64,000 nucleotides of DNA, taken from positions 558,001-622,000 of the forward strand of contig NZ_CP110005.1 of the NCBI RefSeq assembly GCF_025947225.1, written 5' to 3'. Each line of letters begins with the position of its first letter. The stretch's first letter is position 1. The position numbers and the translations under genes were made by a program. Source of the DNA: Flavobacterium sp. N2270. Its GTDB lineage: Bacteria > Bacteroidota > Bacteroidia > Flavobacteriales > Flavobacteriaceae. Shown here in pieces: positions 35,495 through 38,417 of this stretch. Below the pieces are notes generated by a model, which searched no databases, had not been told where the DNA came from, and was given only the letters and a program-made list of their open reading frames with translations.

Positions 35495-36100
35495 ATGGCT
35501 TTCGAATTACCACAATTACCATATGCGTATGACGCCCTTGAACCACATATTGATGCTAGAACGATGGAAATACATCACACTAAGCACCATAATGGATATA
35601 CAACTAATCTAAATAACGCAATTGCAGGAACAGATTTAGAAGGAAAAACTATTGAAAACATCTTATTAAACCTTGACATGAATAATGCAGCCGTAAGAAA
35701 TAATGGTGGTGGTTTTTACAATCACAACTTATTTTGGTCGGTAATGTCTCCGAATGGTGGTGGTTTACCAACAGGTGAATTAGCTGATGCTATTGACAGT
35801 GCATTTGGATCATTTGATGCTTTTAAAGCTGCATTTGCAAAAGCTGGTGCAACGCAATTTGGATCAGGTTGGGCTTGGCTTTGTTTAAAAGACGGAAAAC
35901 TTGAGGTTTGCGGAACTCCAAACCAAGACAACACTTTAATGCCTGGTGTAGGTTGTGGCGGAACTCCAATTTTAGGAATGGATGTATGGGAACACGCTTA
36001 TTATTTAAACTATCAAAACAGAAGACCAGATTATATTGAAGCTTTCTTTAACGTAATAAACTGGACTGAAGTAGCAAGAAGATTTGCTGTAGCAAAATAA
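35495..36100 (+). CDS. sodB: Superoxide dismutase (Fe/Mn family)
   Basis: 201 residues; dismutates superoxide. Metal ligands are visible: His27 ([11 protein letters not shown]), a second His in [10 protein letters not shown], and Asp and His in [10 protein letters not shown]. The Fe- versus Mn-type choice is not certain from sequence alone, and cambialistic enzymes are common in Bacteroidetes. No signal peptide, so cytosolic. Monocistronic: own -7 element upstream and a perfect terminator downstream. Confidence 0.96.
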
Positions 36101-36113
36101 CAATTACAATAGT

Positions 36114-36149
36114 AAAAAAAGAGGTTCGCAATAGTGCGAACCTTTTTTG
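36114..36149 (+). terminator. Terminator of sodB
   Basis: Perfect stem GGTTCGCA (36123-36130) with TGCGAACC (36135-36142), ATAG loop, then a run of T. Confidence 0.9.
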
Positions 36150-36169: not shown

Positions 36170-36253
36170 TAAAAAAGGTATGCTTTGCATACCCTTTTTG
36201 CCCCAAATCTACCATAAAACTTAACCTACTAATTTTTTGGTACAGCTAAAGTA
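36170..36253 (-). ncRNA. Candidate small RNA A (left copy of a tandem pair)
   Basis: On the minus strand: the -7-like TACTTTAG (36253-36246), then TACCA, an A/T-rich stretch, the 43-nt core (36237-36195) identical to copy B, and a terminator: stem GGTATGC / GCATACC (36193-36187 and 36183-36177), loop AAA, then T6. The RNA would be about 70 nt. TACCA near its 5' end can pair with TGGTA in the core. No TTG is seen at the right distance upstream. It could be a structured regulatory RNA, a repeat element, or encode a micro-peptide (MVDLGQKG...). Nothing else is evident in the 110 bp between copies A and B. Confidence 0.55.
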
Positions 36254-36365
36254 GATTGAATTTATTATGCGTGCATAAAAAATTGACAAACTGTCCAAAT
36301 ATTCGATAAAAGGTGTTTTTTTTGCTTTTATTTAAGAAATTAATTGAAAAATGAAATTATATAAA

Positions 36366-36452
36366 TAAAAAAAAGGTGAAATTGCTTTCACCTTTTTGCC
36401 CCAAATCTACCATAAAACTTAACCTACTAATTTTTCTGGTAGTGCTAAAGTA
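36366..36452 (-). ncRNA. Candidate small RNA B (right copy of a tandem pair)
   Basis: Same layout as copy A. A 43-nt core (36435-36393) is base-for-base identical, preceded by TACTTTAG (36452-36445) and, 19 bp further upstream, TTG (36474-36472). The terminator stem is GGTGAAA / TTTCACC (36375-36381 and 36386-36392), different from copy A's GGTATGC stem, followed by T8. CTACCA and TGGTAG can form a 6-bp helix. It lies just downstream of the purF stop, whose transcript has no other terminator here. Family unknown to me. Confidence 0.6.
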
Positions 36453-36474
36453 TGATAGACAAATGTTAAATCAA
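36445..36474 (-). promoter_or_regulatory. Promoter-like sequence of small RNA B
   Basis: Minus-strand TTG (36474-36472), a 19-bp spacer, TACTTTAG (36452-36445), one base off TAnnTTTG. Confidence 0.45.
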
Positions 36475-36518
36475 TTAAAAAATTGTTTAACGTGTAAAAT
36501 AATCGATAAAGTGCATAA

Positions 36519-38417
36519 TTAATATGCGCGAGCGTCATTTCCTTCATAAAAATTTAAGAAAGCTTTGTTTACAACTCTGTTTCCTCCATTTGTAGGGTAA
36601 TCTCCAGTAAAGTACCAATCTCCAAGATTTTTTGGACAAGCAATATGTAAATCATCAACCGTTTGATAAATAATTTTAACTTCAGCATGAGTGTTTTCTG
36701 GAGTTAACATTTCAGATATTTTGTCTGATATTTCTTCATCTGTAAAGGGAGCATAAATTTCTTTTACAAAATTTACAACCTCAGCATCTTTTAAATTTTC
36801 TTGCGCTTTTGATTTTTTATAAACTTCTTCAACAATATGAAGTAAACCTCTGTCTTTTAGTAGCTCCATAGCGGCTCTAAAAGCAACTAATCCTTCAAGT
36901 TTAGCCATATCAATACCGTAACAGTCAGGATAACGAATTTGTGGTGCAGATGACACAACAACAATTTTCTTTGGTTTAAGCCTATCCATCATTTTAATGA
37001 TACTTTGCTTCAGCGTTGTTCCTCTTACAATACTATCGTCAATGATAACCAAATTGTCAGTCGTTTTCACAACTCCATAAGTAACATCATACACATGGGC
37101 AACTAAATCATCTCTACTACTGTCTTCAGTGATAAAAGTTCTTAATTTTGCATCTTTAATTGCTACTTTCTCTGTTCGAATTTTAACTGATAAAATTTCA
37201 GCTAGTTTTTCTTCTGAAAGCGTATCTCTATTTTTTAAAATTTCAGCCGTTTTTCTCTGATTCAAAAAGTCTTGAGCCGCTTCTGTCATTCCATAAAAAG
37301 AAGTTTCGGCAGTGTTTGGTATGTATGAAAAAACCGTGTTATCAGTATCGTTATCGATTGATTTTAAAATGGCTGGGAAAATTAATCTTCCTAATTTCTT
37401 ACGTTCTTGGTGAATTTCTGCATCACTTCCACGAGAAAAATAAATACGTTCAAACGAACATGCTTTTTTAACCAAAGGTGTTCTAACTTCATTAAGTGAA
37501 ACAGAACCGTCTTTTTTAATTACAATAGCGTTTCCAGGTGTTAATTCTTGAACTTTTTCGAAAGGAACATTAAAAACCGTTTGAATAACTGGTCTTTCAG
37601 AAGCTACAACAACAATTTCATCATCTTCATAAAAATAAGCCGGGCGAATACCTGCTGGATCTCGCATTACAAATGCATCTCCATGACCTAATAAACCAGC
37701 CATTGCATAACCTCCATCCCAGTTACGAGAAGCACGCTCTAAAATTCTAGGAATATTTAATCGGTCAACGATTACTTTTGAAGCTTCTTGCTTTGTAAAC
37801 CCTTCTAATTTTGCTTGTTTGTAAATTTCGGTAACTTCATCATCTAAAAAATGACCTATTTTTTCCATTACAGTAACAGTATCAGCTAATTCTTTTGGAT
37901 GCTGACCTAATTCTACCAAACTATCAAAAAGCTCTTTAACATTTGTCATGTTAAAATTCCCGGCAACAATAAGATTGCGGTGCATCCAATTATTCTGACG
38001 CAAGAAAGGATGTACGCTTTCGATACTGTTTTTTCCAAAAGTTCCATAACGTACGTGTCCTAAAAATAACTCGCCTATATAAGGAATATTATTTTTTTGT
38101 AACTGAACATCATTTTGATATTCTGGGTGTTCTAAAAGTTCGTGATTAATTCGTTCATTAACCTGTGCAAAAACATCTTTAATAGGATTTGCATCATTAG
38201 AACGTATACGGCTTATATAACGTTGCCCTGGAGCAACATCTAATTTTATACTTGCTAAACCTGCACCATCTTGACCGCGATTGTGCTGTTTTTCCATTAG
38301 CAAATACATTTTTTGAACTCCGTAAAAAGCTGTACCGTATTTTTCTTTGTAAAACTCTAACGGTTTTTTTAATCTTAATAGTGCAATTCCGCATTCATGT
38401 TTAATAGCGTCACTCAT
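36519..38417 (-). CDS. purF: Amidophosphoribosyltransferase (glutamine PRPP amidotransferase)
   Basis: 632 residues; first step of purine synthesis, PRPP plus glutamine to phosphoribosylamine. The N-terminal Ntn-glutaminase begins at Cys9 (HECGIALL), implying removal of 8 residues, with QHNRGQDGAG and GNFNMTN. The C-terminal phosphoribosyltransferase has the PRPP loop VIIDDSIVRGTTL. It is longer than the usual PurF of about 470-510 residues; a long form occurs in Bacteroidetes. The leader before the ATG is an unstructured CAA-rich run. purN is nearby on the same strand but not in one operon. Confidence 0.9.
   Translation of the reverse strand: MSDAIKHECGIALLRLKKPLEFYKEKYGTAFYGVQKMYLLMEKQHNRGQDGAGLASIKLDVAPGQRYISRIRSNDANPIKDVFAQVNERINHELLEHPEYQNDVQLQKNNIPYIGELFLGHVRYGTFGKNSIESVHPFLRQNNWMHRNLIVAGNFNMTNVKELFDSLVELGQHPKELADTVTVMEKIGHFLDDEVTEIYKQAKLEGFTKQEASKVIVDRLNIPRILERASRNWDGGYAMAGLLGHGDAFVMRDPAGIRPAYFYEDDEIVVVASERPVIQTVFNVPFEKVQELTPGNAIVIKKDGSVSLNEVRTPLVKKACSFERIYFSRGSDAEIHQERKKLGRLIFPAILKSIDNDTDNTVFSYIPNTAETSFYGMTEAAQDFLNQRKTAEILKNRDTLSEEKLAEILSVKIRTEKVAIKDAKLRTFITEDSSRDDLVAHVYDVTYGVVKTTDNLVIIDDSIVRGTTLKQSIIKMMDRLKPKKIVVVSSAPQIRYPDCYGIDMAKLEGLVAFRAAMELLKDRGLLHIVEEVYKKSKAQENLKDAEVVNFVKEIYAPFTDEEISDKISEMLTPENTHAEVKIIYQTVDDLHIACPKNLGDWYFTGDYPTNGGNRVVNKAFLNFYEGNDARAY

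Follow-up and report, generated by a model that had tools for sequence, protein, structure and literature searches.

Two short tandem units on the minus strand of the window, the whole 64,000-nucleotide stretch of DNA analyzed here, belong on sequence evidence to a real and strongly conserved family of small RNA (sRNA) genes that is of a known kind and is missing from Rfam. The best explanation, and a fairly likely one, is a tandem, independently transcribed, multicopy regulatory sRNA that would be governed by an orphan LytTR regulator and would function free of Hfq. In the proposed mechanism, two tandem genes of a Flavobacteriaceae-wide non-coding RNA family (~71-75 nt) would each possess a housekeeping-type -7 promoter, with a LytTR-type regulator acting on two direct repeats 20 bp apart upstream. 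The RNA would run from ACCA through a short 5′ hairpin displaying AGTAGGTTAAG and a single-stranded linker, AUUUGGGGCAAAA, to its terminator end. The RNA would act in trans, with the near-invariant loop and/or the GGGG linker base-pairing to several mRNAs without Hfq, and tandem copies would provide a higher dose.

Architecture of the two units

The exact repeat previously described in both units as 43 nt long is real and slightly longer, at 45 nt, and its copies lie 198 nt apart. Likewise present on the minus strand of each copy is TACTTTAGC-NN-TACCA, where NN is TG in copy A and AC in copy B. Two covariance models were used: R1, built from 4 copies and applied with a cut-off of E ≤ 1e-3 (its E-values are rough and its filters strict), and R2, built from 102 matches. 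The genes flanking the sRNAs are presumed to be purF and sodA. The features of the locus are as follows.

36519..38417, minus strand: purF-like amidophosphoribosyltransferase gene, the conserved upstream neighbor (likeness by tblastn)
36502..36515, minus strand: left half of the LytTR-like direct repeat of copy B, TGCACTTTATCGAT (motif and letters)
36482..36495, minus strand: right half of the LytTR-like repeat of copy B, ACACGTTAAACAAT, 20 bp away and diverged from the consensus
36445..36452, minus strand: copy B -7 box, TACTTTAG, 12 nt ahead of ACCA
36369..36440, minus strand: sRNA copy B, the first after purF, ~72 nt (R1/R2 matches; 5′ end from the -7 box position)
36391..36435, minus strand: 45-nt stretch of copy B, same as in copy A, containing the loop AGTAGGTTAA and the linker ATGGTAGATTTGGGGC
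36370..36397, minus strand: intrinsic terminator of copy B, GGTGAAA/TTTCACC (terminator scan)
36302..36315, minus strand: left half of the LytTR-like repeat of copy A, CACCTTTTATCGAA (motif and letters)
36282..36295, minus strand: right half of the LytTR-like repeat of copy A, GACAGTTTGTCAAT, 20 bp away (motif and letters)
36246..36253, minus strand: copy A -7 box, TACTTTAG, 12 nt ahead of ACCA
36171..36241, minus strand: sRNA copy A, the second copy, ~71 nt (R1/R2 matches; 5′ end from the -7 box position)
36193..36237, minus strand: 45-nt stretch of copy A, same as in copy B
36171..36199, minus strand: copy A intrinsic terminator, GGGTATGC/GCATACC plus T run (fold, letters and covariation of the family helix)
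35495..36100, plus strand: sodA-like superoxide dismutase gene, the conserved convergent neighbor (likeness by tblastn)

Across the family, TAnnTT precedes ACCA by exactly 12 nt in 162 of 183 copies, and the -7 box is absent at that place in 21 of 183. Because the -7 box of Flavobacterium psychrophilum spans -12 to -5 (PMC9723704, in excerpt), this spacing puts the predicted +1 at the A of ACCA, at 36440 in copy B and 36241 in copy A, one base off the 36441 and 36242 of the initial annotation. Each copy conserves its own promoter, seen in the -7 box, and its own intrinsic terminator, seen in compensated stem pairs. Two transcription units are supported by the constant spacing of the -7 box and by direct repeats ahead of first and later copies, and transcription of both is very likely, judging from these elements. 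A generic sigma-70 scan gave nothing on the minus strand at the window locus.

The terminator stems of the two copies are wholly different, as had been noticed (GGGTATGC/GCATACC in A versus GGTGAAA/TTTCACC in B). In an alignment of 90 distinct copies, the terminator helix has two-sided changes in 8 of 11 pairs and 99.7% of its cells paired. Over the whole structure the paired share is 96.4%, compared with 43.6-57.8% in six slid controls, in an alignment that had been fitted to the covariance model; RNAalifold recovers the same two helices from it, the 5′ helix with 4 pairs. In the core, AGTAGGTTAA is constant in 87 of the 90 distinct rows and ATGGTAGATTTGGGGCA in 84, figures biased toward likeness by retrieval of the rows with a model of this very sequence. 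Compensated pairs in the stem and constant letters in the core thus bear out the earlier suggestion that the terminator is kept for its structure and the core for its sequence. Since the core is so constant, we infer that it must be under constraint from several partners or from one essential partner.

Pairing of TACCA with TGGTA had also been proposed. The pairing is predicted as the 5′ helix (ACCA/TGGT), with which two RNAs from other genera (L023 and L033) fold, but from the inferred start the lowest-energy model of both window copies and of L060 has the 5′ part paired differently, with the linker. Covariation speaks neither for nor against this near-invariant helix because its stem hardly varies. 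With a few extra 5′ bases, both window RNAs are more stable than nearly all shuffles (z of -3.76 and -3.46); from the inferred start the z values are -2.70 and -3.37.

Four terminator-like hairpins are found between 36000 and 36700, against 0.3 expected from shuffles. The terminator scan gives the copy B hairpin on the minus strand and that of copy A on the plus strand only, which is probably due to the T-run rule of the scan. A further hairpin 3′ of sodA (36117-36148, GGTTCGCA/TGCGAACC) faces the sRNA terminators and is terminator-like on both strands in the scan. A downstream GCCC element, considered as a terminator extension, occurs in only 7 of 193 copies and was dropped.

It is very improbable that the core codes for a conserved micro-peptide, MVDLGQK.... 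Although an ATG frame crosses the core and the 17 nt from the ATG are alike in 84 of the 90 distinct model-found copies, the frame stops after 8 codons in 47 of the 90 and after 5 or 10 codons in another 7, and in the remaining 36 no stop comes before the RNA end. It is also shifted by the length of the A run, most of the few core changes alter residue or frame (by eye), and the ATG lies inside the predicted 5′ stem.

Distribution and genomic setting

A wider search of the core with a covariance model had been recommended, and it places the RNA far beyond the window. Of the 299 Flavobacteriaceae genomes sampled, 240, representing 193 of 236 genera, have an R1 match (E ≤ 1e-3), as do 260 of 299 genomes within the genus of the window at the same cut-off; the 59 family genomes without an R1 match perhaps include some lost to the strict filters. 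R2 matches 23 of 247 genomes in a sample of the phylum, all 23 of them Flavobacteriaceae, with 204 matchless genomes given as a count only. In a sample of the order, 25 of 146 genomes have an R2 match, and 24 of these belong to the Flavobacteriaceae; the single match outside (G910) is weak (E 6.5e-5) and comes from a genome with 6% contamination. A search for the 30-nt core with up to 3 mismatches finds it in 5 of 61 genus genomes, all listed matches being exact.

A pattern scan of named genomes yielded at least 117 stretches (loci). The named genera among the matches listed are nearly all Flavobacteriaceae, and include Flavobacterium, Winogradskyella, Algibacter, Formosa, Aquimarina, Lacinutrix, Salegentibacter, Aequorivita, Tamlana and others. 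One contig labeled Lentimicrobium (L169) has the Flavobacterium-type purF-sRNA-sodA order and, because of that same order, is probably from a misbinned assembly.

The remark that no family with this core was known holds true for Rfam 15 at the gathering level, in the window and 12 related loci. Weak Rfam matches at a relaxed threshold (28 listed, such as NrrF at 28.1 bits versus 60 and STnc40 at 26 versus 45) were attributed to chance or to resemblance between terminators, and short matches in 3 records of a phage collection (E 0.8) as chance. Strings of 16 nt from the core have no match in the full text of searchable papers, a search covering main texts mostly outside subscription journals. 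Nor was the core found in the main-text literature on Flavobacterium RNAs that was searched. Two RNA-seq studies list candidate Flavobacterium sRNAs (PMC9723704 and PMC5395568, both in excerpt), and none of the candidates of the latter matched Rfam according to the excerpted text. The published lists may already contain the sRNA, which may be one of the 89 Rfp RNAs of PMC9723704 (in excerpt).

The genomic place of the family is largely fixed. Among the matches listed, 84 of 117 loci have purF upstream and a convergent sodA downstream, 18 have purF only, 7 sodA only and 8 neither, and several of the missing neighbors reflect ends of the fetched stretch. The first copy lies 3′ of purF on the same strand in 102 of the 117 loci listed, with the core mostly 90-130 nt past the gene. 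This position would suit units that are 3′ end elements of purF, whether terminators or RNAs processed from the 3′-UTR of its mRNA. Such an origin is nevertheless improbable, given that later copies too have the -7 box at its fixed distance and the direct repeats, and that 7 of the listed loci have sodA alone beside the RNA, some of them due to contig or stretch ends.

Copy number varies among loci. In 118 arrays, the window included, 56 have one copy, 50 two, 9 three, 2 four and 1 five (among the matches listed), and the spacing between copies is 170-260 nt in 64 of 78 cases in these listed arrays. At 19 of 51 two-copy loci the first copy has GTTC with 7 A and the second GTTT with 5 or 6 A; from these position-specific letters, the first and second positions may be old paralogues. 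The same terminator hairpin is shared by 21 of 97 within-locus pairs, as against 12 of 1891 between-locus pairs (related species unweighted), and this excess of identical hairpins within loci suggests partial homogenization or recent duplication there.

An exact repeat that is multicopy and often tandem might also be a dispersed repeat or mobile element, a reading with next to no chance of being right, as the position is fixed in most listed loci and the model has no match elsewhere in the window genome. In that genome (2.79 Mb, one contig) the covariance model matches these two copies only; blastn adds 7 further matches, all with E of 0.06 or worse. The initial annotation had held that homologues occurring as scattered repeats, devoid of hairpin and promoter, would speak against sRNA genes, and the homologues instead retain promoter, hairpin and genomic position.

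Direct repeats and a candidate LytTR regulator

The alignment of 287 promoters reveals conservation in two blocks, at about -57 and -37. A matrix trained on the right block picks out its left counterpart exactly 20 bp upstream, both in first copies (n=94; mean score 4.33 versus -9.48, best of 200 shuffles) and in later ones (n=57; 3.31 versus -7.12, best of 200 shuffles); the loci are related, so these repeat counts are not independent events. Words of the form CCGTT[CT][GA]TC occur in 18 of 151 promoters, compared with 1 in the reversed control and 0 on the opposite strand, and three of the four such words are AlgR sites in the excerpted text of PMC4064291. The half-site tGCaTTTcATCgAA of the sRNA promoters is accordingly like the AlgR sites CCGTTCGTC, CCGTTTGTC and CCGTTCATC (PMC4064291, in excerpt). 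LytTR regulators bind imperfect direct repeats ~12 bp apart, AlgR not always doing so (PMC4064291; for AgrA, PMC4227749; both in excerpt). Two direct repeats upstream, the mark of a LytTR promoter, are found with a 20-bp period at first and later copies, and in the window the right half-site of copy B departs from the consensus. Binding of a LytTR protein to these repeats is a somewhat better than even prospect, and the sRNA genes are probably switched on by a LytTR-type regulator.

Of 60 family genomes, 58 encode LytTR domains. LytTR genes were taken from 14 hand-picked genomes, mostly small and RNA-bearing, six of which (G106, G308, G152, G354, G237 and G226) are small genomes with exactly one LytTR gene and one RNA copy each. 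These six single LytTRs and one each from G327, G103, G323, G080, G225 and the window genome form one clade (FastTree support 0.997; 12 of the 21 proteins in the tree). A priA-like ORF lies downstream of the clade gene in 12 of 12 genomes (by eye, with a Pfam check on the copy of the window genome) and ribosomal S6 ORFs, mostly with S18, lie ahead of it in 10 of 12 (by eye); no kinase-like ORF is seen by eye among the listed neighbors. Among the 12 clade proteins, 4 retain the phosphoacceptor aspartate (the window genome, G226, G323 and G103; alignment, by eye). In the priA-linked LytTR of L300 and 11 other loci, this aspartate is replaced in 8 of 12 and the DNA-binding domain is still alike.

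The RNA promoter of G106 is an almost perfect 20-bp repeat. In G106 and G327, which are of one genus, the same 20-bp repeat also precedes the LytTR gene, matched by 1 and 0 of 300 shuffles respectively (figures uncorrected for the number of tests); a significant 20-bp repeat of the LytTR gene's own is absent in 10 of the 12 genomes. A direct repeat of 21-bp period, CGTTCACAAC, stands ahead of the G225 LytTR gene (L294, G225b; by eye) and scores poorly with the sRNA-promoter matrix.

The most likely regulator is the orphan LytTR protein encoded beside priA, to judge from this concordance. G083, with no RNA match and two LytTRs that both fall outside the clade, and G124, with neither an RNA match nor a LytTR, fit the link. 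Counting against LytTR control are G246, which has the RNA (E 7.2e-8) yet no LytTR gene that could be found, and G939, which has no LytTR while its genus-mate G125 carries the RNA. Because the RNA-bearing genomes compared were hand-chosen, the concordance may only mirror a widely conserved LytTR.

Mode of action and likeness to known RNAs

The window genome was searched for complements of the linker and loop, allowing up to 2 mismatches; the places listed are, for the linker, 100 of 112 on the forward strand and 0 of 118 on the reverse, and, for the loop, 77 of 77 on the forward strand and 23 of 62 on the reverse. The linker complement is commoner than its reversed control (112+118 versus 61+72, both strands alike) and the loop complement is rarer (77+62 versus 134+126). 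Inspection around 28 of the 230 linker and 18 of the 139 loop places, own RNA genes set aside, gave no target; nearly all of these inspected places are within genes, and many of them run antisense to the gene. A possible ORF end is close by at three: a loop complement with 2 mismatches 27 nt inside a start (L263), a linker complement with 2 mismatches close to an ORF start on the opposite strand (L238), and a loop complement at a reverse-strand place adjoining an ORF end (L264).

Hfq was found in 0 of 60 family genomes by a search that was positive in 5 of 14 control genomes. An RRM_1 protein is found in 1 of the 60, the window's own genome, and most of the other 59 carry the RNA. This protein (G000:C1:1165318-1165527, L273) is a possible RbpB-like partner in this genome only.

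CsrB/RsmY and 6S RNA act by protein binding or titration. In the same way, the sRNA might bind and titrate a protein rather than pair with mRNA, its near-identical tandem copies setting the dose. This alternative is rather unlikely. Some 30 core nt are near-invariant across the whole family, beyond the needs of a short antisense seed, and the 1 to 5 tandem units per locus (among the matches listed) and the 0 of 60 count for Hfq are also in its favor. However, no repeated protein-binding motif was noticed inside one RNA; an RbpB-type partner is made unlikely by the single RRM_1 protein among 60 family genomes, neither the window nor 12 related loci match 6S RNA in Rfam, and the partial target search without success gives titration no credit. 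Antisense action, set against protein titration, has about an even chance.

Multicopy paralogous sRNAs are known from Bacteroides, where the FopS RNAs (RF04319; PMC11697453, in excerpt) are ~65-70 nt and have sigma-ABfr promoters. The present family resembles them as multicopy paralogous short sRNAs in Bacteroidota. It fails the FopS gathering score (15.3 bits versus 56), no copy in the window or 12 related loci giving a gathering match, and unlike FopS its members stand in tandem at a single locus behind LytTR-like repeats. FopS RNAs bind the RRM protein RbpB (PMC11697453, in excerpt), whereas RRM_1 is found in 1 of 60 genomes of the flavobacterial family. Another RNA for comparison is Rfp18 of F. 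psychrophilum, a genus-wide conserved sRNA that was found by RNA-seq and has an effect on metalloprotease mRNAs (PMC9723704, in excerpt). Compared by description only, Rfp18 pairs with protease mRNAs via a third stem-loop (same excerpt), while the window sRNAs have two hairpins.

Flavo-1 (RF01705) is, like the present family, a short flavobacterial RNA family, but at its gathering score no copy in the window or the 12 loci is assigned to it. Its one match in L217 (4992-5076, minus strand) lies ~0.9 kb beyond a five-copy sRNA array, without overlap.

RNAIII of Staphylococcus aureus is a long regulatory RNA that also encodes a peptide. The likeness here is that of a regulatory RNA whose promoter has direct repeats to which a LytTR response regulator binds, with binding in the present case being predicted. 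AgrA, the S. aureus LytTR regulator, acts at promoters P2 and P3 (PMC4227749, in excerpt). Unlike in that system, the candidate regulator has no kinase-like neighbor ORF and has lost the usual phosphoacceptor in 8 of 12 cases (by eye).

A broader proposal, put forward tentatively at somewhat below even chances, is a core Flavobacteriaceae circuit in which the orphan priA-side LytTR, its phosphoacceptor lost in several lineages, would drive the purF-sodA sRNA array. Such a circuit would be family-wide, Hfq-free and mostly RRM-free. If the preferred explanation of a LytTR-controlled multicopy sRNA is true, a regulatory RNA would be conserved family-wide in the Flavobacteriaceae, a major environmental family in which one sRNA, Rfp18, has been tested by deletion according to the excerpted text of PMC9723704. 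It would also raise how base-pairing RNAs work in a group with no Hfq detected. The question of the regulator is directly testable, because six small genomes have one RNA copy and one LytTR gene each.
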